The translations under genes were made by a program, and so were the position numbers. From Clavelina lepadiformis (taxonomy: Eukaryota > Chordata > Ascidiacea > Aplousobranchia > Clavelinidae), in the NCBI RefSeq assembly GCF_947623445.1, contig NC_135243.1:4094501-4158500 (forward strand): a stretch of DNA of 64,000 bases, read 5' to 3'. The notes below the pieces were generated by a model that made no database searches, was not told where the DNA came from, and saw only the letters and a list, made by a program, of their open reading frames with translations. Of this stretch, positions 2,752 to 34,789 are shown piece after piece. Each line of letters begins with the position of its first letter. The first letter of the stretch is position 1.

Positions 2752-5700
2752 TTATTCCGCTTTAGAACGAAAGAAGTTAGAGATTCTCCGAGCAAGCGGT
2801 CTTTTGCACCCAGTGCCTCTATCAGCAGGAGATTCACGTCTGGAGCATGTAGTAATTGAGCAAGGGGCAGGTGTGATTTGTCGCAAGCGGCCTGCGTAAA
2901 ACTAGGATGAGTTTTTCAAAAATTATGCTTCGAACGTCAAGTGTCAGCATCAAATGTTAACACCATTTTTTACAAAGAAAAATCGCCAGTTATTGACGAG
3001 GCCATCCATCACTGAAAACACCGATTCCCGTACACAAAGCCATATGTAAATACACAGTGAACTATAATCCATGATAACACAACTACTCACGTGAGGATAA
3101 GGGGGCGGGGAAAGGAAAGGATTTTGACAGGTAAAGTTTTCCCTTAGTCACACGTGTTAGTTCGTAAGTAAACATTTCAGCTTCATTGTTGAGGTTCATG
3201 TTTTTCGTCGAAATACGGAAAGTTTCTCGCAGGAGAAGTCCTTGTTCAAATATAACATCGCCCGACACAGTCTTTTCAACTGGTTCGACGATGCTTCTTG
3301 GACTTGACAACTTAAGCTTAAGAGATTCACCAGGTCTACACAAAATATTTCGTTATATTAAAAGTTGTTTTTAGTGATTTTCTTGAATTAAACATTTTTG
3401 AAAAATATAACAGTAAATTTTGTAAGCATTTTGGAAATGTATAAAATTAATAACAACTTTTACAAAAATCTTGACAACCTGAATATCAAAAGACCGCTGA
3501 AACCTTCATACTCTTTCAACGAAGCAGTATGATCCATGACTTCATCACGAAATTCCCAGATGAAATAGGGAACGGGTGATTGATTTGGAGGACGGTAACA
3601 CTTGTAGGTGAGTAGTTTGGTGAAAGAGCTCTTATTTCTTCCCAATGTGTTAACTCCTCTTAGCCTGGACAACGCATCAAAACAACGACCGCGTCAACCC
3701 TCCACAAACACAGACACAGACAATAAGATCGAAACTTACAATAATTCCAGAAAAGAAAAAAGAAAATCGTACACTTACCAAGATAAAGAAGAAGTTTTAA
3801 AAGCTAGGAATTGTGAGTAGGTGTGCATGATAACCTCCAAATCATACCACTCTCTGCCGTTTGTACTTGTTTGTGACTATAGCGGAAAAGCAAAAGATAA
3901 ACTTCTAAGCTATATATGGCGTAAAATATGTCGAGCGACCTACTGTAATAGGCAGAGGTGAGTCCAGAAAATAACACATTGGAAGAGCCACGGTTATTTC
4001 CTTCCGAAAATTATGAGATGGAACACAGCCCACAGTTGGGGTGAGAACTTGAACACCAGGTGTCTGTATATAAAAAAGTCCTCGCTTATAAAGATTAGAA
4101 TGCAGTATTATGATGAAAGTGTCAAACAGTGGATAATGCAAAACCTTGGAATGTTCTCTCCCATACAGCATCATAAACAGAAATTCACGTGTGTCCTGTA
4201 AAGCTCCTTCGGGGATCTTGATATAGCCGTCCAGAAACTGGATTGTACCACCCTTTTTGCCAACTATCTGTCAGAAGCAAAAGCAATCGTAAAATCGGGT
4301 TTTCAAAGAATCAGGATAGAAATAATTTCTGTGCTTACTGCGTAAGTTTCGTTGACGTACTGTATTGCAACAGGGGGCAACCAGCATCTGTTCTTTTTGA
4401 CGACGTAACCCAGTTCACATCCTGCAAAACTGCTAGTTAAGCTATGTTAAAGAAAAACCTTTAGCAGACGCAACGGCTTTAATTGCGAACGTTAATGAGG
4501 CAAACGTACTACAAGGAATAAACTATGAAAATATTTTAATTTTACCCAAATAATCATGACATTCTCCCGCCAATGCAGTTAATGGAGGTGGAATGTATTC
4601 TTTTTCCACCGTGCCTACAGAATTTAAAACGAAAATATTATTTCGCATTTTATATTTACAAGACAACAATCGATTTCAGTTTTTGTTAATACCCTACTGC
4701 TGCTCTTGTTAATTTTCATTTATATTATTTTCTTGATTTATTTTAAATTTTTATTTTATTATTATTAGTTTTTATAAAAATTAGGCTATAGACAAATGTT
4801 TTGCATTTGAATTATGGCTTTCGAATGAACGTTTACTTTCAGAACTGGCACGATTCAGTGTTTCTTGAGAAAAGCCGCTGCTACAGGAAATACTTTTTGC
4901 CACAGACGTAGAAGGAAAGTCCTCGCTTCCAAAGTAAACCATTTTTTTTCGGCGTTTTGTTTCAGTTGCATCTTGCGCTGAGTTGTAAAGAAATAATTTA
5001 AAATAATACGCCAAGATAATATTATGCTTCACAATATTGCTACCATTTGGTTGTGAACGGAAAACATCCACGAGGGTCCCTCTTTTAGATACAGACTTTC
5101 GTTGACGGAGAGTAATCATTTTTGAGAGAGCAGATGCTACTTCACGTTGCTTTGGTCCATATAAATCGATTTCTCTTGGGCTTAAAATTTCCACAACTGA
5201 AAAAGTTTTTCAGATTAGCACCATGCTGAGAAAAAGCATTAACAAAATACAAAGATAGTTACGATTATTGGTGAACGTGATATTTTTTTCTGCCAACCAG
5301 TATCACCTACCATCATTTGCGTTCGCATCCACAAGGTGTCCACGAATGAATTTCAACATAACATCTGTCAGCTTGTTGAAAAAGAGAATATCAAAGGAGT
5401 CGTCCGGGATTTCCTCTTTAAGTCGGGTGAAGTTGAGAAATGGGTAGTTAAAAGCTATTAGGCTCCCAAATTGTGTTGGAGTTATAACACAACGGGTGAT
5501 GATTTCATAGGCTACTTGGAAAGCACTGCAAAAATAAAAATTTGAATTAGAAACTGTAACAAAAGTGATCGTTTGAACGTAAAACAAACCTATAAATGTC
5601 TTGGACTTTCTCAAACTTAGGAAGTTGTAAGAAGTCCAAATTATTACGGTTCGAATCGTCATCATCGCAATTCCTTTTCGGGAGTATTCCCCGCCGTATG

Positions 5701-6522
5701 GGTCCTAACTTAACGATCAAATCATGTGTTAGTAAGATGTTGCTGGACTTCACACCACCATGCGCGATTGAAATGGTTTCACTGTAATTGTGCAAATATT
5801 GCAATGCTTTGAATAAATCTAAAAGCATTCGTAGTCTCAGCCACCATGGAATTTCACGACATAAACTTTCCGAACGCAAAAAGGATTCCAGATTTCCACA
5901 TTCAGCAAGCTCAAGTACGATACCGAAAAAGCCAGGCCAGCTTGTCACACCGTAGAAAGCAATGATATTTTCATGGCCGACCGTCTTAAGCTTTTCAGCT
6001 TGAGCAAGCGCTCTAGAATAATGCCAAGTTTAAATTTAATGCCAAGGTTCTCTTGCTTCATCTTTATAGATAATAATAATAATAATAATAATAGTAGTAA
6101 ATAAAGGAGATTGAAAGTTATTGCGCGCTTTATATAACAATCACTCAACGTTATTTAGTTTTTAAATCACTCAAAGATAAAGGTTTTTAATAATTCGCCA
6201 GTACTTTTCCGTCTCTAAATATTTACCACCACCAGAAGCCTGACGAAAACATCATTTAATGTACCTACGAAAAAGCTAAAAAACTAAAGTAGTTCTCAAA
6301 TTTGTAAAATATTAACTAAAACCTTTCAAAACCATCTTCATCCTTCAGGGAAGGATCGTCCGTAGCTGCAGTTGGTTGGCTGGCAAAAACCTTCACAGCC
6401 ACACGGCCCAATTCGGGATGGTCACATTTCTGAATTGTTACTAGTTCCTTCTTACCCAGATGGTCGCCTTTTCCAGTGTAGAATTGAGAGGCAATGTAGC
6501 TGAAAAATTCGCTAAGGGACAT
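2752..6522 (-). CDS. gene A: kinase-like + ZU5 + C-terminal UPA-position protein (13 exons)
   Basis: Exons (high to low): 6323-6522, 5590-6012, 5311-5525, 5044-5196, 4837-4977, 4546-4614, 4339-4421, 4145-4267, 3944-4063, 3779-3876, 3479-3664, 3091-3335 and 2752-2891, about 731 aa. Every junction is GT/AG and keeps frame. Residues 1-280 are TKL/RIPK-like: the lysine sits in VAVKVF, followed by HENII, PWWLR and LQYLHNYS. It is probably catalytically dead: the helix-C Glu is Gln (LAQAEKL), the catalytic loop reads HGGVKSSN, and DFG is replaced by GPI. Exons 7-10 (about 400-541) form ZU5, with GGTIQF, IPEGAL and VLTPTVGCVP. Exons 11-12 (RPPNQ, FEQGLLL) are shared with genes E and F and sit where UPA follows ZU5. 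The tail is polar and arginine-rich. If the 4837 donor (GTAAAC) is not used, exon 5 reads to a stop at 4781 and gives a kinase-only form. The start is supported by the conserved N-terminus (MSLSEFF) and exon-1 length. Confidence 0.82.
6070..6101. repeat. (TAA)n microsatellite
   Basis: A run of AAT/TAA trinucleotides with a few TAG variants lies in intron 1 of gene A. Confidence 0.9.
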
Positions 6523-8995
<2,473 letters not shown>

Positions 8996-10859
8996 TTACA
9001 ATTTCGGTTTACTGGGAACATTTGCTGCTATTGTCGAAACATCATCAGGAGAATCTCCAGCATCGGCTGGTGGGAGAGGATCACCTGAGTTTCTGGCAGA
9101 CTCCGTTTTTTTAATTTTCTTCTCTTGGATATCGTGCCGTAACGAACTTGAATGGTTTTACTTGGAACAGATAATGTCACGTATTTAGTCACAATCACTT
9201 AAAACTGTTATTTTCAATTTTTACGATGGCTATATTGATTACTAGGTGGATACATTTTTCATGAACTGATTAAAAGCAGATATTGACATAAGTTCATTCT
9301 ATCCTTGCGTTTCATCAAGAAATTATAAATTTTGTTGCGGAAAACTTACCCGGTGATTGTGTATAAATGACATCAAGAGACTCTCTTGAATCAGACTCTG
9401 ACCGAAAACGAGACATTTGCTTTGCTATGCTCCATGCTTCCCCAGATTTCTTTAGCGAGTAGAAATTGGTTTCGCCTTTGCTTAACATTCCAACAACTAA
9501 GATTTGAAAACAAATTATTTTCATCTAAATCAAACCACCTTTGTCATTGTAATTTATATATTTTAGATAAAATATTTTGCTAAAACACAAACGATTATAC
9601 GGTTGAAACAGATGACTATTTGACAATAAAAATTTTTTTTCGAAAAGCAAAGTCACGCAGCTACCAGTAATTGCATCTGGTTTCTCCCTAACATTTGCTC
9701 TTGCACATTCCAATGCAACTTCTTTCAGAATCTTAAAGATGGAAGCAGCGTTCGCGTCAGTGCCAAATTCATGTTTACTCTCAAGTTGAATGAGGTTGGT
9801 GATTGGTTGGCCCAAGGAGGTCAAATAACCGAATTCCGTCGGTTTTAGAAAACGGCGGGTAATGATTTCACAGGCTACTTGTGAAGCGCTGCAAACAAAA
9901 AAGTAGTTAGAATAAGGAAACAGCACTAACCATCTACCTCAACCTTACCTGTAAATGTCAAAGAATTTCTGATGTTTAGCAACTTCTATAGCATTTAACC
10001 GAAACCTATCTTTGCTCGGAGCTTTTTTGTCACTGGTGCTGGACATACGGATTGCTTTGAAATCGGTCAATTTAACGATCAACTGTGGGGTTAGTAAGAT
10101 GTTTGCGGATTTCACATCTCCGTGGGCAATTGAAAGTGTGTCGCTGTAATTGTGTAGATACCGCAACGCTTGAAATAATTCAAACAGAAGGCGCTGCCTC
10201 AGCCACCATGGAATGTCCGGTACCTTACTCTTTGCACGCAAGAGTCGATCCAAATTTCCGCAATCGGCCAGTTCCATGACAATACCGGCAAACCCATACC
10301 ACTTTATGACGCCATAATATTGGATGATGTTTTTATGGGTAATGCTCTTAACCTGCTTTGCTTCTTTAAGCATTCTGAAAAAATGATGACAATTTTTAGC
10401 TTGAAGTTTAGTGTTGAAATGAATATCGCATTATAAATTGAAAGTAGTTTTAAGAAACGGTTATTACAGTACTCTATGGTCTTCCTGATCAAATTTATTT
10501 CAATTACAATCGGCGAAAAGTTGATAGAATTTCATCACAATAAGATAATTTAGTTCTAACTTTGTCTTTAACCATTCAGAAACACATTTAAAAATTTTTA
10601 AAGTTTAACAATTTTGTGTTGCCTTTTCTTGGTAAAATGTTTTCGGAAAACATTAGACTTACTTTTCAAATCCTTCATTTTCGTCCTTGTCCCAACAATC
10701 GCAGATCATTATTCTTCGTTTGAAAACTTTGACAACTACGGTTCCTAACCCATCGTGCTCGCATCTTCGAATCGTATACAATGATTTCGTTCTAAAAATG
10801 TCGCCTGTTCCACTGCAGAAGTCTGAGGCGTTGTGGCTTCGAAGTTGGCTGAAAGTCAT
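8996..10859 (-). CDS. gene B: kinase-like protein without ZU5 (5 exons)
   Basis: Exons: 10663-10859, 9949-10374, 9665-9888, 9350-9496 and 8996-9123, about 373 aa. The kinase-like domain fills residues 1-280. B is the least degraded paralogue: lysine in VVVKVF, helix-C Glu in MLKEAKQV, catalytic loop HGDVKSAN with its Asp and Asn, and LTDFK where DFG is expected (Asp and Phe kept, Gly replaced). It has no obvious glycine-rich loop. The last exon gives a Lys-rich then acidic/Pro-rich tail ending at a stop. Its acceptor (ATCCAAG) is weak and was chosen because it keeps phase and gives a basic start like the linker exons of A and E. No ZU5 exon was found downstream before gene A, so this is a short family member. 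It may be an active kinase or a regulator of its pseudokinase relatives. The last exon is the least certain part. Confidence 0.75.
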
Positions 10860-11394
10860 TGTTTGTTGAAGAAATTGGGCAACTGCTTACGTCAATAAGA
10901 ATTTATTGTTGAATTACATTTTCTCTGTAAAGCAAATCACGGTTTACTTATATCTAAGTTCGCAGTAACTAAGTGCAATTACTTAAGTATCCTAATGTGG
11001 TTATAATCCTGACTTATACCAATACAATAACCAATACATAATCTTGTGTAATAGTCTGTACAAAATTTTCGGTAATTGTTCGTAACACCCTGTATGTGTG
11101 TGAACCCAGGGCTTTACTACTGACGAAATTGTATATCTAAGTAATCAAATGACCCACCAGGCTACTGTAAATCTTAACATGACATGACAACAAGCAAGCT
11201 GAAATCTTCCGTTTCTGCAATATGCCAATTCACAGATGAAGAAACTTAAAAAAGAACAGTTCCTGACCAACCATAGGTAATCAGTTACCTATAAATAAAC
11301 TGATTATGCAGCATTAAGCTCTAAAAAACGAGAACAAGTAAACAAGGCAGGACAATCAAAATCTTGCCATTATTCACCGCAAATTACAGATAAA

Positions 11395-11510
11395 GCTTGT
11401 GTAAAGGCAAGCACTCGACTGAAAGAAAAAAATGTGAGAAAACAAAACTAATCAATAGGGCAGCCCCGCGGCATCAGACATGGGTCGTGAAATGTTAAAA
11501 GCAAACAAAG
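11395..11510. repeat. upstream segment shared by genes B and C
   Basis: Shares words with 19975-20095 in the same orientation: 'gagaaaa', 'agctaatcaa' against 'aactaatcaa', 'ggcatca' and 'cgtg(g/a)aatgtt'. Both lie about 450-650 bp upstream of a minus-strand short-form gene (B or C). This suggests the duplication that produced B and C included their 5' flank. Confidence 0.55.
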
Positions 11511-11659
11511 CGAATCTATAGTGGCCTTTGGATAAAGTTTTTCCTTGCCGTTAGTTGTTTTACCTTTTTTATGGTGACTTAATTCTCTAGTGCTTTAATT
11601 ACTTCACGGTGTTTTGGTTTTAGTTGATTAATTGCAATCACCATTGGTTATTTGTGCAC

Positions 11660-12492: not shown

Positions 12493-15400
12493 ATGTCTTT
12501 ACACATATTTCAAAATTACGAAGCCTCCGAATTTTTTACCGGTAAAGATGACCACCTGGGAAAAAGAGCAATCGTAAGCATTCGGGAATGTTACCATGAC
12601 ACTTTGGGTCGTGTTGTTGTCAAGGTTTTTAGAAGGTGGAAGGTGCAGGCCAATGTGGTGAGTTCGCCGCCAAGTGAAGATCACGACTTGAAAACGTAAG
12701 TGAAGCGTTGAATTGTTTCCTGCAGATCATGCATATTAAGGAATCGTACATATTAAGCTCCTAGAACTCGATTGTTAAGTTTATTGTAAATAAATATTGT
12801 AATCATCTTTTGCCTGTTTGACCTTTTGGGAAGCTGTCCCGATCATAAAATTTCAATAGTGGTTACAGTCACGTTTTGTTAAGATGTAAGTAGTTATATA
12901 ATGAACATGGAATAAATTAACGTTGGCTTTTTGTCACATTATAACGTTGAAAAAATCTAAACTAGGCAAATTATTTTCAGAATGCTTCGAGAAGCAAAAA
13001 AGCTTAAGATGATGAGCCATGGCAACATCATACGATTTCATGGCGTCACGATGTGGCCTGGTTTTGCCGGGATCATTTTTGAACTTGTTGAATGTGGAAA
13101 TTTGGAATCATTCTTGCGTTCAAAAGAATTGATTCCTTATATTCCGTGGTGGTTGAGAAAGCGCATTTTGCTGGAAATATTTCAAGCGCTAAGTTATTTG
13201 CACAACTACAACGAAAGCACGTCAATTGTGCACGGCAGTCTCAAATCAAGCAACATCTTGCTTACGAAGGATCTCGTCGTCAAATTGAGTGATATGCACG
13301 GAGTTCGCATTCAAGATTGCAATGATCAATATTCGACCTGTGATCGTTTTGGTATCGATCTTTCTGAATTTCTTCAGCAACAAAAGCAGTTTGACATTTA
13401 CAGGTTTTTTTACCACGACTTGTTCAGTTTGTGTTTTCTCAATCGTTTCACTTTTAAGAAGCATTTTTTTCACTTTCACTTTCACTTTCACGGTTTAAGT
13501 ATTGTTTCTTATTTTATTTGTAGTACTTCGCTAGTAGCTTACGAGATCATCACACGTCGTGTGTTCACATCAGCAGAATTCAGTTGCTTTACCTCCTTGA
13601 ACGCTCCGGTAGGACTTTTTACTCGAGTCGATTTTGATGATGACCACTTAAACGAATCTGAGAAAATAATTTTCTATAATTTACGCCGAGTTATGTCTGA
13701 CTGCGGAAAAGAACACGGAGAGCGACTAGACGCGATAAGTGGTTGGTAAACGTTATGATGACATATTGTTTTCTCAGCTGTAATAAGACGTTCTGTTGTA
13801 GATCTTCTTTTATATTATCTTTCTATTTTAAACATACGCTATTATAAAAAAAACAGTTAAAGAGTTTATTCGAAAGTTATTGCATCAACAACCAAAAGTT
13901 GTGGTATGAATTTTTTAGCTGTAAAGAGTTTGGATGGAAAACAAAACCTTTATGAAAGTTTGAAAAGAGATGAAGCAAGGAAAATCGCGCAACCAATTAT
14001 TCGCACCGATTCTGTTTTCAAACAAGAATCTTCCCTTGAAGCATCTTTTGGTAAATATATTATTTCAGCTTAAGCAAAAAAATTGTTCTAGCGCCAACTT
14101 TTAAGCCGACAATTAAAGGTGAAATCTATGAAAATGTGTAATTGTTGTCATTTAGTGGAGAAACAAGAAACGAGCGAGCGCAACTATCCGGAGCCCAGTA
14201 TAGGAAGTGGATTAAGCAGGGCTATAAACGTCCCTAATTACTTACCAATCACACACTGCTATGCTGAATCTATGCTGGATAGCAAATCTCGCCACAGGGA
14301 ACTGTACGAAGAAGAAACACTGGTTGATAATATTTCGTCTCCTGGACTTGATAGAAAAGGTTTGAACAATCCTAAACCTGCCTGCTGTTCACCGATTTGT
14401 GAAAACTCAAGTTTTAGTTAATTAATCCAGTTTTTATCAAATGAGATGCAGACTTATTTTTAACATAAATCAAAATCGTGTTTTCTGTTTATTGACACTT
14501 CGAAGAAGGAAAATCAGAATATGCCTTCACTGAGACGAGGCGATCCAATTCAAATTTAAAAATATTGTGCTTATTTTTTATCATACAATGTGCTAGCAAA
14601 CATAAATCGATTACTATATTATCAATGTTGCATATTGTATTGAAATAAATGCTTAATTTATTTGCCAATCGCAACCAGCTTTAATGTCGTATAATTTTAT
14701 TGAATCTACCATAGAATTTCCAAGCAGCAATGAAGACGTAGCGGTTTGTTCACATTTCGTCCTTGGCCTCCATGAACAAAGTGAAGAAAACATAAAGGAA
14801 GTTGATTCATCTGACAACGCTCTGATTACGTCAGGAAGAGATGATATTCCCAACACGAGGAAAAGAAGTAATTTGGCTTCTTAGCAATTTGTCTGTGTAT
14901 TTTCATTTCTGCTCGCAACAGACTTCTGTACGCTGCCTCTCACCTTGTTGAAAGGCAGTTTATATAATAATGAAGAGTTATAAAGCTTTTTGGTTGCAAA
15001 ATTTCTATTCAATGATCGACTTTGCCAGTAGATCAAATCACATACTGAGTAAAAGAATTTGCAAGCTTGCCGTCATTGCAGCATTATCATTTGTAATTGT
15101 CTTATCATTGTCATTGTCATTATAATTTGTAATTGTTATTGTAATTGTCTTCAAGGAGGAACCAGTGTTAAAGTCTCATCAATGCAAAGGCGTTTCCCAG
15201 CTCCAGAAGATGTATGGTTCGCATTCGAACAATGCACAGTATGTACATTACTTTTCAATTGATATTAAATGAATGAAGGTTTGTGTTTTGTATGACTTTT
15301 TTCTTTGGTACAGATTGTTGATATGGAAGGTGAAAATATTCACTTTGATGAAATTGAAGACTGTGAAATCCTCATCCCACCCGGAGCTCTAGAACGTGCG

Positions 15401-15865
15401 CACGAGTTCAAGTTCGTGTTGCTTTATTTGAAAAAGAATTTCAAGGTTTCAATTTTTCTTATTTAATCACAATGAGCTAATTAACTAATTAACTGCTAAC
15501 TGTTAACTAATTGACCAATTCGTATCATGATAGTAGCAATCAATTAAATTTTACAAAATATGTCTTTTGCAATAGAATCCTGATGTTCAGGTTCTGACAC
15601 CAACACTTGTTTGCGTACCATCAAACAAGTTTTTGAAGAATGTAACCGCAAAACTTCCAACTTGCTACATACCAGAGGAACCTGTTAAAGTTACTGTAAG
15701 CTTCAAGATAAAGTTCGTTCTGTTTTACAGCACATCGAAGCTTAAATTGTTCTACTTTTTCCGCTGCAGACAAGCAAAGACGGTACAGTGTGGCACATTT
15801 TGAAAAATATCTCTCATTACAACTCAAACTACATAGGTTTTGAAACCGACTTTTTATGCTTTTAA
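12493..15865 (+). CDS. gene D: kinase-like + ZU5 protein, truncated C-terminus (11 exons)
   Basis: Exons: 12493-12695, 12981-13403, 13524-13741, 13919-14050, 14092-14118 (tentative), 14156-14359, 14679-14867, 15156-15238, 15314-15445, 15576-15695 and 15770-15865, about 608 aa. It is the only plus-strand member. The start is the ATG opening MSLHIF; an in-frame upstream GTG is not a plausible start. The kinase-like domain keeps lysine (VVVKVF) and helix-C Glu (MLREAKKL), but the catalytic loop is HGSLKSSN and the DFG site is SDMHG, so it is probably inactive. Exons 8-11 encode ZU5 (IPPGAL, VLTPTLVCVP), with exon sizes of 83, 132, 120 and 96 or 67 nt that mirror A, E and F. It then ends (GFETDFLCF, stop) without the two exons that carry the UPA-position module. 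An alternative splice to 16386-16534 would add about 49 residues. Confidence 0.75.
13465..13491 (+). repeat. (TTTCAC)n hexanucleotide repeat
   Basis: About four hexamer units lie in intron 2 of gene D, between the donor at 13404 and the acceptor ending at 13523. Confidence 0.9.
15085..15152 (+). repeat. (TCATTG/TAATTG)n degenerate hexamer repeat
   Basis: A pyrimidine-rich run of TCATTG and TAATTG-like units lies just before the acceptor of gene D exon 8. It probably serves as the polypyrimidine tract. Confidence 0.7.
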
Positions 15866-17543: not shown

Positions 17544-19528
17544 CTACGGATTACAATTTGCCGATGACCACGTAGGGAGTTTGCTGTTTGCGGGAATGGG
17601 GGAACAAAATGTTGGGCGAGAATTGTCTTCATTGAGTGTGTGTAGGAAAGGATACTGGGTCACTTCTTTTGGGTCTTCTAAAACAGATTGTGCTTGAATT
17701 AAATGTTATTGCTTTCCTTCTCTTTTTATTGTTATGACTTATGATTTTGATGCCAAATCTTATTAGCTTAATTTTTAGCTGTTTAGTTAAAAGAACACTT
17801 TTTTTAAATTTGGAAGACTTGAAATCTCGGGATCTTTTAGAAAAACTACCTTTAGTCTTAGCACGGAAAGCAACATCAAGAGGTTTTTTCACAGAAGCCA
17901 TTTGTGGTTGGTAGTAGGAGTACTGCTTTGCAATAAACAATGCTTCTTCTGAAGATTTTTCTCCATAAAAATCTAGGTTTCCTTGACTCAGCATTCGAAA
18001 AGCTACGAATACAAAACAACGCGAAATAATTACCGATTGCCAGTTATATCTATCGCACCGTTAAAGATATTATTGTGACACGACGTCTACAAATAATTAA
18101 ACAATCAACGCATGAAACGATGAAATTGTTTCTAACATAAAATATAACAAATACCGGCATTTGCGTCTGGTCTTTCAGCCTCGTTTGTGGATCCACATTT
18201 TATCACCGTATCCTTCATCTTGTTAAAGATGGAAATATCTACGTCGTTGCCACCCAAATTCTCTTCAAGTTGGGCGAAGTTGGTAGCTCTGTGGCCGAGG
18301 GATGTGAGGTAGCCATACTCGGCTGCAGTCAAAATACGACGAGTGATGATCTCGTAAGCTACATGTGAAGCACTGCAAACAACGTAAGTTAGTTTGGAAT
18401 AATAAATCAACATACATACGGTAAAAATTGATAATATTACGCTGATAAATTTACCTATAAATGTCGAGAAGCTTTTGATGTTCAGGACTTTCTAAAACGT
18501 GGATTCGGTTTTCAAAAACGTCACCGCCTTCACTGATATCGCGGGTTCCCTGAATATTGCTCAACTTAACAGTCAACTTTCTCGTTAGTAAGATATTCCT
18601 AGAAGATACATTTCCGTGAGCAACAGATTTTGTGTCGCTGTAATTGTGTAGATACCGTAACGCCTGAAACAGTTCTAAAAGCATGCGCTGTCTCAGCCAC
18701 CATGGGATGTCAGGAACGTAAACTGTTGAACCCAAGAAGCCTCCTAGATCTCCGCATTCAGCGATTTCAAGCGCGATACCGCCGAAGCCAGGCCATTTCA
18801 AGACGCCATACAATCGTATGATGTTTTCGTGGTCAAACATCTTTATTTTTTCTGCTTCATGCAACATTCTGAAGCAAGATTACAAAACTAAAATTTAAAA
18901 CTCTGTAAATTTTATTGGCGTCAAATGTTTTCCAACAGCTTAACGTTGTAGAAATTTTTCTGCTTCTATATTTTTAAGTTTTTGTCAAATATCAAGCGTA
19001 TAAAATTAATTTTTTCCACTTATCGTTACACACGTAATTATAATAAATTTGTTGGAATAATGTGAAAAAAGTGCTTTGGAAGCCAACAAAATGCATACAT
19101 GTAATGTAATATAAATGTAATAAAAGCGTATGTAGCTAATTAGGGTTTAACCAACTTATTCGACCTACTCTACATGCAAATGCAAATAAATAAACAAAAA
19201 CACAGTGATACCTAAGTTTAGGTATAGTAACGGGAAATAAAGTATTTAACACAAATAGCTGCACGTGGCATTATCATCTAAGCATAATTTACTGCTTTAC
19301 AGAAAAAAATTATCCATCACAGCTCGCTTACATTCTAAAGCCTTCGTTTTCATCTTTAGGCAATATCCCGAAAAGGTTTAATCGCCGTTTGAAAACTTTG
19401 ACAACCACCCAATCCAAGTCATTATGATGACATTTGCACACTGTCATGTTCTCTTTCTTTCCAAGACGGTCTCCTTTACCGGTGTAGAATTCATTGGCGT
19501 CGTAGCGGTGAAAATCGCTGAATGACAT
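17544..19528 (-). CDS. gene C: kinase-like protein without ZU5 (5 exons)
   Basis: Exons: 19332-19528, 18455-18868, 18155-18372, 17850-18002 and 17544-17677, about 371 aa, all in frame with GT/AG junctions. Lysine (VVVKVF) and helix-C Glu (MLHEAEKI) are kept. The catalytic loop reads HGNVSSRN and the DFG site SNIQG, so both catalytic Asp residues are lost and this is a probable pseudokinase. Exon 4 has the conserved LDFYGEKSSEEA pattern found in all members. The last exon gives a short polar tail (starting EDPKEVTQYP) and ends at TAG. No ZU5 exon lies between its stop and gene D. Its domain layout matches gene B, and the two share upstream sequence, so B and C probably form a short-form subfamily. 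Confidence 0.82.
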
Positions 19529-20095: not shown

Positions 20096-20198
20096 TCAAA
20101 AATGCAATTATACAACGTGATAGGAAAAGTAAAACGTTGGATTGCTGAAGAACGGCCAGACGTTGTTGAAACGTTAAACCAACCAACATTATTATAGG

Positions 20199-22607: not shown

Positions 22608-25600
22608 TCAAACCAATGTTATTTTGTTTTCGGCAGGTTCCACTTCATTTTGAGGTTGAGAAAGTCCTTCCAAACCTGTCGAAAGGGTCCAGTAAGCAGG
22701 AGTAACCTTTGCTAATCGACCTGAAAATAAAAACACAAACATATGATATTAAACGCTGGGAACCTTTAAAGCAAAAATGGATGTCAGAACGAAAAAGGTT
22801 TCTTGTCTTTCTTTATGAAAACATGTTCCTGTGTAAATTTTGTACTAAGTCGATTTTGTGAAAAAGAATATTTGCGGTTCGTGACAATGTAACTTGTACA
22901 GAGTCTCGAGTGAAACATTATTTGGCAAATTACCAGTTTAAAGAAAGAGACCAACCTCGCGATAATGGTTTGGGGAAATAAAAGCATTTTCCATGGACAC
23001 ATTTTTTCTTTGATTTGGATTCAATTGTGCATGTAATAAATTTATCTTCATATTTCGTGTTCTGCACTGGAACATAGAAACTTGTTTGTAAGAGAAATCC
23101 TTGTTCGAAAACATCCCTGCCGCTATGAATCCTCTTCTTTGGTTGGATGGAGAAATCTTTACTTGACAACGCAAAGACCAAATCATCGGAACTTTAAAAG
23201 ATACTTGCTGTTAAATTATTTTATAATAGCTTTTCTGCGGAATCTTTAACTGCGTTTAATATACGTATATAATTAATGTTTCATAGCAAAAGTACATGCA
23301 TTTTTTAAAAGTACTTTTCTAACTACCATTTTAAATAGCTAAAAATGTGTTCTGGGTTAACTTCCAACCTGACAATCGCAATTCCATATACGCCTTCATT
23401 CGCGCGTAACTTATCACAAGAATTCACGATATTGTCACGAATTTCGCAAGTGATGTATGGATTAAAAAATCTGCTTGGATTGCGGTAGCATATGTACGTT
23501 AACTGCTTTTTGTGTAAGCCAATGTTATTTTGAGATTTAAGGACAACTCTTTGCCTAAATAGAAGGGAAGCAAAAATAACGCTGTAAAAGTTCAGTATGA
23601 TAAAGGTTTCTACAAAAACACCAGCACCGTTAAAATATTTTTTAGTTACCAAGATAAAAAATCATCTTGAAAAACAATGGACATCGGAAAGAAATGTTGA
23701 ATTTCATTTAAATCTTTCCATACTTTACCATCTTTGCTTTTCTGGGGCTGAAAGAAAACATAACGTTAAATTGCTATAAGCAATGCAATGGCATGAAAGC
23801 TAAATTATCATGTCTTCAATTTACCGTAACTTTAAGGGGACAATCAAAAACATAGCAAGTTGGAAGTCGTATGGATACTAATTTCAGAAATTTGTGGGCC
23901 GGTACACAGCCGAGTGTTGGCGTGAGAATTTGTACGTTATGCCTCTATTGCAAAATAAAATAATAAAGTAATCAGTAAGGTAGTTCACTATAAAGTGTTG
24001 GCTAATTCTTGTTAACGATAGTTAACAGAATTTAAACCTTGTAATGAGCTCTACCATGAAGCAACATAAACGTAAACTCGTGAGTTTTTTGAAGGGCTCC
24101 TGCCGGAATGTTAATCTCACATTCACATACATTAATTACACCGCCTCGACGCCCAATCTTCTGAAACAAAAAATAATAGTATGTCGACAAGTTTTAAGCT
24201 ATGTAAAGACAAAATAACGAAACAAATTAGACAGAAAACTTTGTCATGTACTGCGTGTGTTTCGTTCACAAATTGTATTGCGACCGGAGGTGACCAAGAA
24301 CTATGAGTTGAAGTGACTTCAACATCATCATCTCCTGCAAAATTTAAGTTGGTTTGAAAAGGTAAAGGCTATGATAAACTACTTTCAAATACGATCTGAC
24401 AACGATGCAGTATTTTGGTTCTTTTGAGAGATACGTTTCACACAATTTTCCCTTTCGCATTATATTTATGTGCACTCGTCTTTTTTGTATTAATTTAGTT
24501 GGAAGATACTTTTAGGCATTACAAAATTAATTGTTAATTACAATACGTTGAACGCATTAAACAAAGCAATATTTTTTACCAAGGTTGCAGGATGATGTCT
24601 TCTCTGTTGCATCGATTGAAACTTTTGGAGAAACGTTTTTGTCTACGAGTGTTGAACCACCACGTACGCTGCAATTCAAGGAGCCATCAAGAGAAAAAAT
24701 TGAATCTTTTGCCATGTGGTCAATAAAAAGAGTATCTATAGTACAGAAAAATGTTTGATAAAAATTAATTACAACATTTCCAATGGAAGCAACTACATGA
24801 ATGTTTACTTGCATTTTAACTATTTCGACAGAAAAGTTTCAGTGCATTTTAACAATATGCAGTAATTCAAGTTTTATTGTATTAAATTTTTAGCAGAAAA
24901 CAACTATTTACGGCTTGAATATTTTTCCAGAAAAATGTAAGCTTTACAGAAAAGCGTGGAAAGTCTTTTTGTCTTTATCATCGCCCCGTGAAGTAAACTT
25001 ACTTTTAAAAATACCTTCTAAGCCTATTTCTCCCAAACTTTTGCTGCATCCAGGTTTACACTCTTTCGGAGATCCCGGATAGATTTTATAGTTTGGACTA
25101 TAGGTACTTTGTTTCTTTCGACGGATTGTGGCTTCTTCGTTTTCTAATAAATATACAATACTTGAAGAAAAACATAAAAACAGGACCAATTTTCTTATGG
25201 CTTGCTTTTTGTATTTATCAGCTCTGCTTCGTTTTTTTATTTTGTTTCATGTCAAGTTAATTATTAACGTTAAATTTTGCAATAACATGGTGTCTGGTAA
25301 AATGGATATTTTATATTTTGCAAGAAAATTTTATCTTCGTAGAAAAGGGTTGGACGTGCTTTAATATTTATCGCCCAATGAAGCACACTTACTTTCAAAA
25401 ATATCTTCAAAGTCTGTTTCTAGCAAACTCTTGCTACATCCAGGACTACACTGTATAGGAGGTTCAGGATAGATTTCAGACTTTGGACTATAGGCACTGT
25501 GTTTCTTTCGACGGCTTGTGGCTTCCTTATTTTCTAATAAAGATATCATATAGGACGTAATTCAAAAGGAAATACTAAAATCAAAAATACTAAAATACTA

Positions 25601-27508
25601 AAGCACTAAATGAAAAAGATTCGTTCGTGAAAAGACAGGGGTCATATTTCTTATAACACAGCTACTTCGTTTTTTATTTTTGTTTGGCAGGTAAATTAAT
25701 TGTTAACATTCAATATTTAGTTGATATTCTATGTTCTAGTTTAATTTATTTCATTTCTTTCCTTTTGTTTTAAGTTTACCATACTGTAGCATTGATAATA
25801 TCACAGGAATTACAGATCCTTCAACAAATAATAATAAACTTTAACAGTTATTTTTGAAAAACATTAAGAAATTAATTCTTTCAGTAAGGAAAATTTACCT
25901 GTAGGCTTTGGACGAGACACAAAATCAAGAGTTTCTATCTTAGAAAATGATTGTGCTTGGCAAGACGGAATTAGTTCGGAAGTGTTTTTAGATTTTTTGA
26001 CTTTGAGGAATCTTACATTTCTTTGGCTTAAGAGTCGAACAACTAAAAATAACTTCCAAATAAATTCGACATATAAACATACCTTCTTTACTGTCATGCT
26101 TTCTAACGTGGTAAAATGTAACGATCCATGCTAACATTAACCAAATTATTAACGAAAATGATATAAAAACCATTTTTTTTACAAAAAAAGGGCTTAAATT
26201 ACCAAAATCTGCATCCAGCTTATCCGACCTGTTCATTCCGCTACATTTCAACATAACTTTTTTCATAGTTTTAAAAATGGAGAAATCGTTGGCGTTCTTG
26301 CTCAATTTATCTTCAAGTTGGGTGAGGTTGGCGGCTGTGTCACCGAAAGATGCGAGGTAGCCAAACTCAACCGGAGTCAAGATACAGCGAGTGATGATTT
26401 CATAAGCTACCTGTGAAGCGCTGCAGTCAGCAGAAGAAATACGTTTAAAACATTAATCTAACACAAAACGTAGAACAAAAAAATACTTATGCATAACCTT
26501 AAAGTGAAACCAAACCTGTAAATGTCCAGGAATTTCTGATGTTTAGGAGTTTTTAGAACATTTAACCAACCACCTTCACAAATCGAGGCCTCTTTGTCAA
26601 ACGTACTGGTGTTGCCAATTTCCTTACAATCATTCAATTTAACGACATGATCTTTCGTCAGTAAGATGTTTTGTGACTTTACATTCCCGTGCACAAATGA
26701 TTTTGTGTCGCTGTGATTGTGCAGATACCGCAACGCTTGGAATAATTCTAAAAGCATTCGCTTTCTCAGCCACCATGGAATGTCAGGCACCTCATCTTTT
26801 GCGCGCAAAAAAGATTCCAGATTACCACCTTCTGCCAGTTCCAATACGATTCCCTCAAAGCCTGGCTTTTTTGCGACACCGTGAAACTGTATGATGTTGT
26901 CATGGTTCAGCTTTTTAAGCTTTTCCGCTTCACAAAGTATTCTGTAATGTGGTATACACAAACTATATTATTGAAAAGTTAACGCTGAGTTCAATGAATA
27001 TTTCATAGAACTTGTCAACAAGTTATAGAATAATATTAAAATCACAGAAAACGTTTAACACTGTTAAAAAGCGCAAAAAGATCCCAAGAATTGAGTTTAT
27101 TTTTATGAAATTTGCAATCAGAAGCAATTTACTGTATTATAAAAATAATATAGTTATAGTATATGTCAAATATTTACAGAAGTAATTTCAAACTTGTTTT
27201 AACACAAGGCTTCCGATAATTCATACCATAAGTTTAAGGACGTTTAAGTATGCACGCTGTCAAGACTGCCCAGTGCTGTTATGCAGCATCTTTGCAAAAC
27301 ACTTAACTTACGTTTCTAATTCATAAATGTCTTCTTTCGACAACGATTCGAAAGAAGTTTGTTGACGTCTTAAAACCTTGATGACAACAGGACCCAGCTT
27401 ATCATGGTACCCTTTCTGTACTGAAAAATTTCCTTTTCCCTCAAAGTCGATGGTATCGATATTGAAGTCAGAGGCATTGTAACATGGGTAGTTGCTAAAA
27501 GACATCAT
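22608..27508 (-). CDS. gene E: kinase-like + ZU5 + C-terminal UPA-position protein (14 exons)
   Basis: Exons: 27312-27508, 26516-26941, 26203-26420, 25899-26042, 25393-25533, 25003-25143, 24580-24735, 24252-24334, 24038-24160, 23825-23944, 23650-23747, 23369-23554, 22956-23191 and 22608-22720, about 793 aa. The phase chain is unbroken. The kinase-like domain has VVIKVL lysine and helix-C Glu (ILCEAEKL), but the catalytic loop is HGNVKSQN and the DFG site NDCKE, so it is a probable pseudokinase. Exons 5 and 6 are tandem duplicates, each 141 nt, with RRKK, YSP and PGCSKSL. Exon 8 gives the SPPVAIQFVNETHA strand. Exons 9-11 complete ZU5 (GGVINV, IPAGAL, LTPTLGCVPAHKF). Exons 12-13 carry the shared module (ICYRNPS, FEQGFLL). 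A short last exon ends LSQPQNEVEPAENK at TGA. The start may be either of two adjacent Met codons (27508 or 27505). It is flanked by inverted copies of one dispersed repeat. Confidence 0.85.
25003..25533 (-). repeat. tandem exon duplication inside gene E (exons 5 and 6)
   Basis: Exons at 25393-25533 and 25003-25143 are both 141 nt, phase 1 to phase 1. They encode 47-residue segments with about 29 identical positions (for example EAT.RRKK.S.YSP, PGCSKSL). The introns also share sequence: acceptor tctaataa..atat, donor ..AAAGTAAGT, and a T-rich block followed by 'taatt.ttaac'. The duplicated unit is about 390 bp. Confidence 0.92.
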
Positions 27509-30080
27509 TTGGAAGTGTCACACAGGTACCTGCGTCTTAGCGCAATTAATCAATTTACCAATCTAGCTCTGTAAAAGTGAAATATGTTAATGCAATTTTT
27601 TGCTGCTCATGAAAAAGCTCGTTTGCAATTTAATTACTGTAGAAGATAGGCGACTATTTCGTGTCTTTGTTTGCATTATATATTATAGCATCATTTCATG
27701 AAGTTATACATAGTCTTAGTCAGTTGTGCCTAACACTTGGTATCTGTTTAAGCATGTCGGTAAGGCAAACTCTCAGGATAAAATTTGCTTTACTGAATGT
27801 ACCCCTTTCAATTTCACTGCATGCTACACGAAGCTGTTCTTAGCTGTTCGCTTAAAACGGCAATATAGAAATTTAAATCAGCTATTATTAGCACTGTACT
27901 AATGAACTTTATCATTCAGATATATTAGTTATTATCAATATAAATATACTGATCTAGTTTAAATCATTAAGAAGTATAAAAAAACAATATCCTGTTGACA
28001 AACAAGTGACCAAATATTAGAAAAACTGTTAATTCTGTCTTAAAACTCTGTTAAAATTAAAAAGATTCTGTTAAACTGAACAAAATGAAAGCTGCCTATG
28101 AGAAACTACTCCTAAATTACTCCATGAGCTACAGAAAAGCCCTCAGTTGGAAAAACTGCAAACGTACCAACGCACAAACTAACCATTTTGCTTTTTTTGT
28201 GAAATTCAACCAGAAGGTGCAACAAATCCTTGTGCCGTCCCTGCGGCGTCACATGGGCGCGTAGAATGCGAAAACAAATGAAGTAAAGTAAATGTGTGTA
28301 GTATGATGTACCAGTGATACGTTTCAAAATAACTTAATCAATCGTAGCTTAATTACAAACCTACTTGCTACTTTACTTAGTGGAATCTCATTTTAAGTGA
28401 AACGTTAAGTCACAAACAATGCTCTTTGACAACGTCGAGCATTTATTCGACTTTAGCCAAAATAATCCAGTTGTTATCATTGTTTTTTGTTGGTTGTTAG
28501 TAGTTTATTTGGCCATAAATAGATACTGCTTAAAATATCCATAACTTCACTTGAATCTTTTAACAGATGCTGTTGATCTTTTGGTAGAACCTACACAAAA
28601 CATTGTTAAAATTGGTCGCAGTTTTCTCAGAGTTTTTGAATTACATGAACAATGTAAAGCCGTGTCTACACAGAGATTGCCACAAGCATAGCGCACACTC
28701 TATTTGCTTTCAAGCGATTTTCAGCTGCCCTTCTACGCGTGCGACCTCAAGCGAATCTATACAGTACGTTTACTCGCTTTTTCGCCGCTTTTTGTTTTGC
28801 GAAACAACAAGCATTCAAAACGAAATACGGAACAAACATTGTTAAAAGTATATACATAATAGAAGAAACAGTAATGTCACAACAGACAAAATATTAAAAA
28901 ATAAACACTATTTTATACCTTTAGCAAACACATAAACCATAAACGATTAGATACAATGTATAGCTATAGGTATATATACTGGATATCTCTAAATATATAT
29001 GAAATTGTTTTCAATTAAATGTCATTAATATTTACTATTCCGAGGCACAAGTTAAGTACACAACATTAAACTTGACTTCCAGGTCATGTTTTTGGAGAAA
29101 TACTTGATGAAAGGAATTATTTTCACATCTCTTTCAGTTATAATTTTGATTCTGTTGAATTACATTTTTTATATTTTTAACCATACTTGCTTTCTTTGTA
29201 CGTTTATATCAGCAAAAAAAGTGCACAAAATGTGGAGTAAAATCAAAAATTATACCTTGAACGTGAAATGAATAACACATAATTTTGCATGCACCAAGAT
29301 ACGTGATTAGCACATGCGTGTATGAGTATATACTGTACAACAAACATCCTTCACAAAACGTTAAGAGAAATAAAAATAAATAACCTAGATTTTGTCACAC
29401 AATAAAATTTAAAATGTTGGGTTGAAAATGAGATAAGTTATTTAGTAACACTCAAAACGAAAAAGAATGTGCAAAAGACATGAATTTGTGAACATAGGTG
29501 TATTTAAATTTAATATTTGTGAACTTACACTAACAATTTTATCTCAAGTATATATATATTTTTTTATTCAAGTATTGAAACGGGTATCAATAAAAGTGTT
29601 ACCGGCCTTTTCTTATGCTGGTTCGAATAGACCTGCAGTTAAACTATAGAATTGTATTCGATAAAAAAGGGTAAAAACAGGCACGTCTGCTCACAGCTCA
29701 GGCAACGGTAGAGTGACACGTTCGCCAACTAGCCAGGCGCAATTACAAACATCAGCGCCTCCGGCCGAAGGCAGAAACACAAGGCACGTCAAACGAGCAC
29801 AAAACACGTAACAAAAGTACTCGGTTAACTTAACAGAAGCCATCTGTTAATTATCTTGGAATGACAGAAGTGTCAGCATGCATGTCATTCGGAAAAAGTT
29901 TGCTTATAGCAAATGCATAGCAAGTGTGTGTTTTCTCCAAAAATATTCAAAATTGCTATTGCTTATGGATAAGATAGCACAAAGGGTCTTTAACTTGTCA
30001 TAGAATAGAATATATAGATTACTTAAAGCAATAGACTACTTAATGAAATACTGAGTAAATCGTGATTTTATAATCATAAT
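27509..30080. other. intergenic region between genes E and F
   Basis: About 2.6 kb. No exon was supported. It contains dispersed-repeat copy 2 (29585-29830) and AT-rich sequence. A relatively GC-rich stretch at 28650-28810 looks like a degenerate repeat, but I found no boundaries. Confidence 0.55.
29585..29830 (-). repeat. dispersed repeat, SINE-like, copy 2 (inverted relative to copy 1)
   Basis: Contains 'tgctggttcgaatagacctgcag', 'gcgcctccggccgaaggcaga' and 'cacgtaacaaaagta', which match 21855-22110 on the opposite strand. The two copies lie outside the two ends of gene E. Confidence 0.65.
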
Positions 30081-33000
30081 TTAATGATTTTCGAAAAATC
30101 CAATCAGATTTGTAACTAATCCTGCTCTAATTGCAGGTCGTGCAACTTCCTTCTGCCGTTGCTCACTCGCATCATAAGAAACTGCAACATCCCTTGCACT
30201 AAGAGCAAGCGGTGAATTCGTGAGGGAGCAATTTGAAAGCGTGATTTGCGTCAATCGTTCTGAAAACAGAAACGTCGAGTTATGTCTTGTCTTGAAAGAT
30301 TATTTGCTGATTTATTGATTTAAGACGCTTGCCAAGTAGTTGTATTTATTCCTGTACACAAGTAAAGAAAATTTGCCAACCGTGTCATAACCTACTGAAG
30401 AATGGAAAGAATCCGTCACGAACATCAAACTTTTATTTTATAACTGAAACGTTCAAACTTACAATTTTTATGCTCATTCTGTTTTAACATCGGAAGACTT
30501 TTTTGCAGAACAAAATCTTGCTCGAACACATAATTTCTCATATGCGTTGATTTCACCATATACAGTACGTTGTGAAAACTGTGAAAATACATTTACCTCG
30601 TGGCAGTAAATCGAGAAAAGGAAAAATTCCATCACGAACTATGTTGTTCGTCAACGCACTCTTTATTTCGTAGCTAAAGTGTTCTTCTTCAAAGTCTACT
30701 TGCTCGCTTTGCTTTGAAATGCGGAAATTTTGCTGAAGAAGGAATCCTTGCTCAAACATATCGTTGCTCACAACGGTTTTCTCATCTGGTTGGATCCAAG
30801 TATTTGGACTTGATAATTTTAAAAGCAAATCCTCTCCCGACCTGAACACACCGTTTTTAGGCGAGTTCCACCTTAGCACACTTTTTCGAGTCCTTTAACG
30901 TTTAAACGTAAATTTTTAGCATTATTTTATGGTGTCGTTTAAAGTTTCAGCATTTGTCACACAAAAAATATTAAATTCGTGAAATATTTGTGAAATACGT
31001 AAAATGAAATACCTGACAGTTACCGTTCCCTTGAAACCCTGACTCGGTTTTAGTAGATCATGAGGATCCATGACGTCATCACGAAATTCCCAGGTGAAAT
31101 AGGGATCGGAGATGCTGCTTGGATGGCGATAACACAAGTATACCAACCGTTTGTTGTACGCGCCTAATAGGCTTCGTATCGCCATCACGACCCTCTGCCT
31201 ACACGAAAATGGGAAAATAAGTTTGAAATGGCAGAAACGTTGTTGTAGCTTTTGTATGAAAAAAATCCAAAAAAAAACAAACAAAACAAAAACAAAAACA
31301 AAATCCAAAAAATACAATGGTAAATAAAATAAGAGGTGTAAGACCAAGAGAAAGACGAAGTTTGGTAGGTTATGAAGTATCCGTGCTCCTGTTCAACTTC
31401 ATCCAAATCAGTCCACATTCTGCCATCCTCACTTTTCTGAGGCTGAACGCGAAAAAAAATGTTAAACCTTGGGTTGCTACATGCGCAGAGCAGACAGACC
31501 GAACAACTTACTATCACTGAAACAGTTTGCTGCGGAACATAGCATGTAGGAAGTTGCACGGTTACTGGTTTCAAAAACTCACGCGAAGGCATGCAACCTA
31601 GCGTTGGCGTGAGAACCTGCGCACCGTTGTTCTATTTGAAGAAAAACATCATTTTTAAGCAGTTATGTTACTTATTAACTGATTAGTGGGAATGTAAAAT
31701 CATGGTATCAATGCTCAATTAGTTCAGTACCGTGGACATTTCTCTTCCATAGAGCAACGTAAACTTGAGTTGGCATGTTTCTATTAGTGCTCCTTGTGGA
31801 ATGATAACTTTGCAATCAGCAATATTTATTGTACCTCCTTGTTGCCCTACAGTCTGAAACAAAACATTGTTAGTGGAACATTGTGGTAAAAATGATTGGC
31901 CAATATAAGTTAGCTTTTGACTTACTGTGTAGGTTTCATAAACGTAGCTGATTTTTACTGGAGCTATCCACCATCGACTTTGTGCAATATTCGTAGCAGT
32001 TTCGTTTTCTACAATAAGAAAAGTTGTTTTGATCATTCACCGTTTTTCAAATTCAGCCATTTTTGCATTGTTATGTTTTTCTTTATGTCAAGTAGAAACA
32101 AACGTGGTTGTAGCTGTCGACTTTGATGACGTTTCCTGCACCGACGGAGCGAAGGGGAAGTGTTTGGTGTGGTCCTATTCGATCTGACGATGTAATCGTC
32201 ACTGATGTCGCTTTCCTGGTCGCTGTCACAACTGTTTTTGCGGCTGATTGCTACAAAGCGTTTAGACAAGTGCTTTTAGATTTAATTTTTACTCTTGCAT
32301 TTGGTATTGTGCTCAAGTGGTGACGAAAACAGTTTTAGTTGTGAAAACATAACAGCACTTTCTTACTTTTGGTTTTAGTAGATTACTACAACATCCTAGA
32401 TTATTTCGTGCGCTATGTTATTTATTATAGTGCGGTTAGGTTTGTACATTGTACATTGCATCATACTGTAAGTTATGATTATATTGTACACGAGCATACA
32501 TTGCATTGTTTTACAATATTCATGTAATAAAATCGGTGGTCTCATTTTTATGATTTTCATTATAAAAAATATTTTCTACTTTTAGAAACGCTCGCTTGTC
32601 GTCGTCGAAACATGGTCGAAAGGTCGTCCCCGCTTTCTGGTTCCAAACCAGGGCCATCGCCTTCAATCCACTTTTTTCGTATTTTGCTTTTGCCGGACTT
32701 TTGCTGGCGAATGTGATCAAATTGCTTGGTACCACTATGTAAGCCTGAAACGAATCGATTGTAGTTATTAACTTAATTTCTGTTACAACTGAAAATATTC
32801 GCAAGGCATTAAATTTTTTGTTTATTTTTACACTGACCTCTAAACATGTTTTTATCTCAGTAAATTTTTATCAGGTTAAAATACCAGCAACGAAATAATT
32901 TCCTGTTTGTTTTGATTTCAACATTTTACTTATAATAATGTTTAAATAAACAAACTGTTATTAACTAGAAAGTTCAGTCATTTGTTTATTTTCCATAAAT

Positions 33001-34789
33001 TTTGCAAAAAATGTACCTTTTAGTCGAAAATGCATATCAAGTGGTTCTCTTTCATAAACTAATTTTTCTCTTTTTTCGATAATGTTCTTCGCGACTACCC
33101 AAGCTTCCTCAGATTGTTTTGGTCCATAAAAATCAATTTCATTTTTGTTTAGTAAATCTACAACTGCAAGAAACACTCATTTTTTGTTTCTCTTTTTACG
33201 ACATCCAGTCAACATTAAAAACCAATATATAAAATTTAAAAAGGACAAAATAACGTAATCAAAAACGGTTTTCTATAGTTAGGGTTTGAGGTTTGAGGTT
33301 TTATAGTTAGGTTCGTAATCTCACTCGTGGCGCGCCTTTACCAGTGTTTGCATCCAGTCTGTCCTCGGGTTTCGCTTTTCCACATCCAAGCATAACCTGC
33401 TTCAGGTTTTTAAAAATTGGGAAATTAGTGGCGTCGTCCCTCAAACTTCCATCAACTTTATTAACTTGGCGCATCCTGAGGGTGATTGGAGACAAATACC
33501 TGGGCTGGTGGGACACGCCAAACGCAATAAAACGTCGGGTAATGATTTCATAAGCTACCAACGAAGCGCTATATTAAAAAAATAGTTTTGTAAAATTGAT
33601 CCTATTTGAAACAAGAAATGCAAGTTACACTGCTTTTACTATAATATCATTCACGGATGCTACCTGTAGACATCTGCGCAGGTAGTTTGATTGTGAGGGT
33701 TTTGGAGAACTTCTGGTGCGGTATAACTGGGGGTATATTGAAAATTTTCATCGGGTAACACGTCATCAGACGTCTTAAAAATGCAACTGTGCATGTCAAC
33801 AAGCTTCACTGTTAGACGTTTTGTTAGTAAGATACAAAGGGATCTTATATTTCCGTGAACAATAGATGTGGTTTCCCTGTAATTGTGCAGGTACCGCAGT
33901 GCTTGAAACAATTCTAAAACAATGCGTTGTCTCAACCACCATGGAATGTCAGGAACCAAATCTTTTGAACTCACAAACGAACGCAAATCTCCGCATTCGG
34001 CAAGTTCCAGTACAATCCCGGCAAAGCCAGGCCATCTTGTGACTCCGTGAAACCGTATGATGTTTTCATGGTTCATCATCATGAGCAGTTGTGCTTCGTG
34101 AAGGATTCTGTAACGAAAAAACTTGTTTCGTATTTTGAACGTTTAACGTTTACAGCGTCAACAACCACGTGATACAGCTTCTAGAAATACGTATAAATCC
34201 TATTTGATTACTTCAATAAAACAGAAAAATAAGCTTCTTAAATATAGCTGTCTCTATAAAAAGTATAAAGGTATTATCACGTAACGTTTTAGATTACAGC
34301 TTTTATAGCCTAAATCGACAAATAGTTTATCTTGTGGTAACTTTTTGTAACGGGTTTAGTTGTAGGCTTAATCATTCTCATATAAAGCTGTATAGTTATG
34401 GTTTGTAACATAACTAAATTAATAAAAATAAATTTTTATATTGTGCTTGTAGGGTTATAGAGCTACACGTAATATTCACATTGCTGCAATTTCAAAGGAA
34501 TTACAGTGTACTGAACGCAAAATATGTTTTATTATGAAATTAGTGACCATCAAAGTGTTAAGAGCTGGCTTGCTCACAAACTATTGGGTTACCTGTTAAA
34601 AGTTGTGTCATCATTTTCAACTTCACTGATACGCTTTTCCATTGACCGTCGTCTGGTGTGTATTTTGACAACCACCCGTCCCAAATTGGAATGTTTGCAT
34701 TTCAGCACGTTTAGATTTTTTCCAAAAACAAGGGGTTCCCCCGTCAAAAATTTGGCAGGATTATAAACGGGAAGTGTAGTGAACGACAT
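30081..34789 (-). CDS. gene F: kinase-like + ZU5 + C-terminal UPA-position protein (13 exons)
   Basis: Exons: 34593-34789, 33664-34107, 33342-33568, 33017-33163, 32580-32744, 32104-32250 (donor uncertain; 32131 also possible), 31926-32008, 31731-31853, 31512-31631, 31345-31442, 31013-31198, 30597-30841 and 30081-30259, about 786 aa. The Met of MSFTTL was chosen over one five codons upstream because exon 1 then has the family length of 197 nt. Lysine is in VVVKIH. The catalytic loop is the most divergent of the six (HGNIRSLC, losing both Asp and Asn), and the DFG site is VDMHS. The variable linker exons are Ser/Arg/Lys-rich. ZU5 (GGTINI, IPQGAL, VLTPTLGCMP) is followed by the shared module (YLCYRHPS, FEQGFLLQQ). 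Exon 10 ends in SSFSW with a GTCTTA donor that is validated only by its 98-nt length match. The last exon begins ERLTQIT, like RLRQIT in gene A. Confidence 0.84.
30385..30532 (-). pseudogene. decayed duplicate of gene F exon 12 (3' half)
   Basis: Just downstream of exon 12 (30597-30841), the same strand reads YVFEQDFVLQKS.., ERFSYKIKV and then stops. After a frame change it reads VRDGFFPFFSRL. These match DMFEQGFLLQQ, EHFSYEIKS and IVRDGIFPFLDLL in exon 12, in the same order. A stop, a frameshift and the missing 5' half mark it as a relic of a tandem exon duplication, skipped in the model. Confidence 0.82.

Follow-up and report, generated by a model that had tools for sequence, protein, structure and literature searches.

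A 64-kb window of the Clavelina lepadiformis genome (C4:4,094,501–4,158,500; genome 209 Mb; hereafter the window, to which coordinates without a C prefix refer) contains, at 2752–34789, six paralogous kinase-like genes (A–F), as revealed by translated self-comparison. In spliced models built with GT-AG introns, A, E and F each encode a kinase-like domain followed by a linker, a ZU5 domain, a conserved C-terminal module of ~145 amino acids and a tail, an order that, with related ZU5 stretches beside caspase exons elsewhere in the genome, suggests an undescribed signalling family. We propose, with a probability of about 0.5, that these proteins are pseudokinase–ZU5 adaptors or sensors acting in immune or cell-death signalling. 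A first-pass annotation made from the letters of this DNA had already described the six-gene array; our analysis recovered it, supports the tunicate source and the kinase–ZU5 fusion that it named, and showed that the array is in fact larger, with nine kinase copies over 138 kb.

Gene structures and domain order

The ZU5 exons of 83, 123, 120 and 98 nucleotides and the first module exon of 186 nucleotides have the same lengths in A, E and F, and their phases are identical in the three genes. The first-pass annotation had reported four of these lengths (83, 120, 98 and 186 nucleotides) and the identical phases; the 123-nucleotide exon is added here. Its broader statement that most of the six genes are fused to ZU5 plus the module held only in part, as ZU5 is present in four of the six window genes and the module in three. 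C has a kinase, linker and ZU5, and B and D have a kinase and one linker exon. Exon-wise tblastn of the array region (C4:3,980,001–4,158,500) detected no ZU5 exon downstream of B, no ZU5 exon for D and no module exon for C. The models are as follows.

Gene A, 2752..6522, minus strand: kinase exons 6522-6323, 6012-5590 and 5525-5311; linker exons 5196-4837 (with a further intron in P0006) and 4614-4546; ZU5 exons 4421-4339, 4267-4145, 4063-3944 and 3876-3779; module exons 3664-3479 and 3335-3091; tail 2891-2752.
Gene B, 9350..10859, minus strand: kinase and one linker exon (10859-10663, 10374-9949, 9888-9665, 9496-9350).
Gene C, 12493..15865, plus strand: kinase, linker, and ZU5 exons 15156-15238, 15314-15445, 15576-15695 and 15770-15865; stop codon at the ZU5 end.
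Gene D, 17629..19528, minus strand: kinase and linker exon (19528-19332, 18868-18455, 18372-18155, 18002-17629).
Gene E, 22608..27505, minus strand: kinase and linker; ZU5 exons 24334-24252, 24160-24038, 23944-23825 and 23747-23650; module exons 23554-23369 and 23191-22956; short tail from 22720; gene end placed according to P0005, which the model matches up to the tail.
Gene F, 30081..34789, minus strand, matching P0001: kinase exons 34789-34593, 34107-33664 and 33568-33342, then linker; ZU5 exons 32008-31926, 31853-31731, 31631-31512 and 31442-31345; module exons 31198-31013 and 30841-30597 (the second according to P0001); tail 30259-30081.

NCBI protein predictions (P0006, P0005 and P0001) give A, E and F each as a single protein with the same domain order, and thus do not separate kinase and ZU5 into different genes, the outcome that the first-pass annotation had named as its refutation. 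P0006 (LOC143453369, 731 amino acids) equals model A minus 22 residues, which are taken out as an extra intron, and shows no residue difference. P0001 corresponds to F with 7 differences in 786 aligned residues and 17 gap columns; it gives the second module exon as 245 nucleotides, the length found in A, where our hand model had 296 (51 longer). P0005 corresponds to E with 13 differences ahead of the tail (10 fall within the linker), a different tail and one additional linker stretch, whose exon we estimate at ~147 nucleotides. The E linker also holds a tandemly duplicated 141-nucleotide exon (25533-25393 and 25143-25003).

The kinase domains resemble RIPK2 and IRAK and have mostly lost catalytic motifs

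A kinase profile built from eight of the nine copies (G2, see below, was left out) was searched against the PDB. RIPK2 accounted for 12 of the 19 sequences at E ≤ 1e-15 (best 2.9e-22), the other seven being MAP3K20 (MLT; three), IRAK3 (two), IRAK1 (one) and a tyrosine-protein kinase (one). Judged from this search, the array kinases appear nearest to RIPK2 and IRAK. Known members of the RIPK2/IRAK family bear a CARD, a death domain or a RHIM; the Clavelina proteins differ from RIPK2 and IRAK in carrying ZU5 and the module and in the predominant loss of catalysis. At the positions that we take to be the catalytic motifs, the β3 Lys is kept in 8/9 copies, the HxD Asp in 2/9 (B and G2), the DFG Asp in 6/9 and the DFG Gly in none. 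Only B retains the β3 Lys, HxD Asp and DFG Asp together. Because the motifs are lost in most copies, most of the array kinases are probably pseudokinases, as first proposed; B alone is left aside from this assignment.

The ZU5 domain and the C-terminal module

As isolated segments, 9 of the 11 ZU5 copies matched Pfam ZU5 (PF00791; best E 1.4e-5), with the member 1 segment scoring 23.8 bits against a cut-off of 21, which bears out the original ZU5 assignment. Consistently, a ZU5 profile searched against the PDB found the ZU5 domain of ZO-1 (E 0.0013 and 0.0066; 0.00063 when the other loci described below were added).

The conserved module sits where UPA is found in other ZU5 proteins, and the first-pass annotation had proposed UPA for it. 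The sequence gives this identification no support. Pfam listed UPA (PF17217) for 0/9 module copies, a second Pfam scan of ten members (nine with the module) listed none, and PF17217 had no match in this genome or in 14 control genomes. Neither Pfam nor PDB profile searches gave a convincing match to the module, and in hhalign against the UNC5B UPA the module scored below 95 of 100 shuffles locally and below 88 globally. Since all three approaches gave nothing, we do not claim UPA; by position and size, the module may nevertheless adopt a UPA-like fold. The lowest E value (0.00022) linked one copy to a poxvirus family, and it fell short of the cut-off of that family in the scans that gave one.

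The array extends beyond the window and is under purifying selection

Exon-wise tblastn placed 9 kinase, 11 ZU5 and 9 module copies and one broken module exon in C4:3,991,221–4,129,289 (138 kb). The broken exon (30407-30547) is an additional copy of the second module exon downstream of gene F. Outside the window lie two complete genes, G1 (P0003, LOC143451853) and G3 (P0002, LOC143451619), and a further kinase, G2 (P0007, 470 amino acids, near-identical by eye), which is followed 3' on the same strand by a ZU5–module gene (P0004, LOC143451618 isoform X2). Complete kinase–ZU5–module genes thus account for five of the nine kinase copies. Additionally, four ZU5 copies, three of them with module exons, lie at C4:4,080–4,093 kb, where tblastn detected no kinase. 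In a tree of the nine kinases, G1–G3 split from A–F (100/99) and neither group has a resolved internal fork; we read this split as two local expansions. Another tandem kinase array was seen at C2:3310283-3379182, with at least nine kinase matches on one strand, ~7–11 kb apart, in open frames of 325–343 amino acids.

The array domains are under purifying selection. Among comparisons of the five complete genes and P0004, the ratio of non-synonymous to synonymous substitution rates (dN/dS) was 0.18–0.74 in 38 of 40 domain comparisons, and two were undefined through saturation. Between G1 and G3, dS was 0.37 for the module, 0.93 for the kinase and 0.89 for ZU5; the low module value relative to the other two suggests that the modules have exchanged sequence, as in gene conversion.

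ZU5 and module exons also adjoin caspase and SH2 exons

Four further loci were picked through matches of P0004 to ZU5-like exons:

L032, C2:5.34 Mb: SH2 match just 5' of ZU5.
L033, C4:0.744 Mb: ZU5 and module exons.
L034, C3:24.18 Mb: caspase-family match just 3' of the ZU5 exons, same strand.
L035, C5:0.746 Mb: caspase-family match just 3' of the ZU5 exons, same strand.

ZU5 profiles matched at all four, module matches were clear at L032, L033 and L035, and the array kinase profile gave nothing convincing at any of the four. The caspase-family (Peptidase_C14) match at L034 (C3:24180788-24181858, E 8.6e-9) spans introns and contains internal stops; that at L035 is C5:744680-744829 (E 3.3e-4). 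Both come from a search with 77 matches genome-wide. By eye, three-frame translations show THG and ESCRGG at L034 and SHGGHG and HCCRGG at L035, which we take to be the caspase His and Cys motifs. At L035, module and caspase could be joined directly by way of a phase-0 donor and a phase-0 acceptor. A ZU5–module–caspase fusion is likely at L034 and L035, each of which would then be a single gene. The SH2 match at L032 (C2:5339153-5339296, E 1.1e-4) is one of 81 genome-wide. At L033, a FLYWCH zinc-finger exon (L033:7331-7906, minus strand, E 1.5e-9) lies upstream of the ZU5 and module exons and may belong to a separate gene.

A proposed role in immune or cell-death signalling

Together, the affinity of the kinase to RIPK2/IRAK and the ZU5–module loci beside caspase and SH2 matches lend indirect support to the immune-sensor idea of the first-pass annotation. 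In the mechanism we favour, the proteins would be cytosolic adaptors or sensors, tandemly expanded in Clavelina. The N-terminal RIPK2/IRAK-like domain, its catalysis mostly lost, would probably serve for binding or as a conformational switch; a variable linker joins it to ZU5 and the module, and the latter pair may act as a signalling or docking unit. Through this pair, the pseudokinase proteins may reach cell-death or inflammatory effectors, a connection we propose because ZU5 and the module also occur beside caspase and SH2 exons in the same genome. In an extended version, speculative and rather unlikely as a whole, ZU5–module would be a docking unit that can be exchanged between proteins and links RIPK2-like pseudokinases, caspases and an SH2 protein in a single PIDDosome-like network; homotypic ZU5–module contacts would stand in for death-domain contacts, and the tandem pseudokinases would form the diversified input arm.

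Several observations weigh against the immune or cell-death role and the evidence behind it. No CARD, death domain or RHIM was listed by Pfam in the six models and five NCBI proteins. With the F kinase alone as query, plant CTR1 was the best PDB match and RIPK2 came next. The closest ZU5 of solved structure belongs to ZO-1, a junction protein, and not to PIDD or NLRP1. In scans of whole proteins, the six window models all fell below the ZU5 cut-off (C alone gave any signal, 14.6 bits against 21), and just two of the five NCBI proteins did. Many dS values are close to saturation, and the E kinase entered the dN/dS comparisons with 131–135 codons, about half. As to the caspase loci, L034 has a weak module match (E 0.047 for the second exon, with the first exon undetected), and its splice sites comprised a phase-1 donor and a phase-0 acceptor alone, so that a join would require an extra exon; at L035, the donor that resembles those of the array is in phase 1, and the module could be joined directly to the caspase exon only from a different, phase-0 donor.

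The ZO-1 match, the sole solved-structure ZU5 found by profile, would also suit a membrane or junction scaffold, with ZU5 working the way it does in ZO-1 or ankyrin and the pseudokinase serving as a protein-binding platform with no immune role; many pseudokinases do serve as scaffolds. We consider this unlikely, given that the kinase appears closest to RIPK2 and IRAK and that ZU5 and module-like exons adjoin caspase exons elsewhere in the genome. Tandem expansion would also be unusual for a core scaffold.

A sensor whose autoproteolysis at the ZU5–module boundary frees a signalling C terminus in the manner of FIIND or PIDD is improbable. A Ser lies at the end of ZU5 in seven of the eight copies that reach so far, closely followed by the end of an exon in the models of A, E and F. 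In PIDD, the cleaved Ser is preceded by a His two residues upstream (the HFS motif). By contrast, that His is found in 0/8 Clavelina copies, and C has Cys in place of the Ser. In NLRP1 the cut falls between ZU5 and UPA (PMC11760013), and the catalytic triad is E1195-H1186-S1213 (PMC9700037). Counted by eye, F and A have an acidic residue 18 positions before the Ser, like Glu1195; at position −27, however, F has Glu and A has Thr, and loop lengths may differ. Moreover, Pfam listed no death-fold domain after the Ser.

A self/non-self recognition locus would draw on the tandem array, the variable linkers and the colonies that this ascidian forms. We judge it very improbable: Pfam listed no extracellular domain, and between two assemblies F differs at only 7 of 786 residues and E at 13 upstream of its tail (10 in the linker), so that hypervariability, taken as a sign of allorecognition, was not seen in these two genes. 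Least probable is a largely decaying array without function, which would account for the incomplete B, C and D and the broken module exon. It would not explain why the frames of A, E and F stay open through at least 12 exons, why splice phases are kept or why dN/dS is below 1.

Relation to known proteins

Among the listed papers on ZU5 with kinases, tunicates, caspases and amphioxus (mostly non-subscription), judged by titles, abstract openings and selected passages, none describes the kinase–ZU5–module order. The nearest likeness is an amphioxus RIPK-like LRR–ZU5–kinase protein (LOC118406448, XP_035662392.1) tabulated in PMC9573974, which likewise unites a RIPK-type kinase and ZU5 in one invertebrate chordate protein. 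It differs in its reversed order, with ZU5 at 448–546 and the kinase at 956–1222, and in its N-terminal LRRs; the passages on it mention neither a module nor an array. Other papers describe TRADD-N in polypeptides bearing FIIND, with autoproteolysis predicted (PMC8195603), ZU5 among the domains accompanying NACHT in cnidarians (PMC8260672), and, in a sponge, an expanded set of ZU5 proteins that may act in defence (PMC3482391).

PIDD1 (LRR–ZU5–ZU5–UPA–death domain) and the FIIND of NLRP1 and CARD8 resemble the Clavelina proteins in that another domain, of comparable size, comes after ZU5. The Clavelina proteins, in contrast, have a kinase in place of LRR or NACHT and lack a UPA sequence match, the HFS His and a listed death-fold domain. 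PIDD works with caspase-2. ZO-1, UNC5 and ankyrins share ZU5 with the array, ZO-1 being the best PDB sequence match, and to our knowledge none of them has an N-terminal kinase. Three protein searches for relatives (thresholds 0.01, 0.1 and 1e-10) returned Clavelina proteins only, apart from one plant kinase (P0008), under a method that needs common 5-residue words and similar length, so that absence in other animals is not implied.

Tunicates are the sister group of vertebrates. The array may offer a testable case of rewired inflammatory and cell-death parts in a chordate that lacks the CARD and death-domain combinations of vertebrates, and the partial forms that occur in it naturally (kinase alone, kinase–ZU5, and ZU5–module alone) would be useful for domain tests.

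Other features of the window

Ten other open reading frames in the window were scanned, none with a Pfam match over the cut-off, and the window had no match in Rfam. A minisatellite with a 9-base unit in 36 copies (99% matches) occupies 7887-8212, between A and B.

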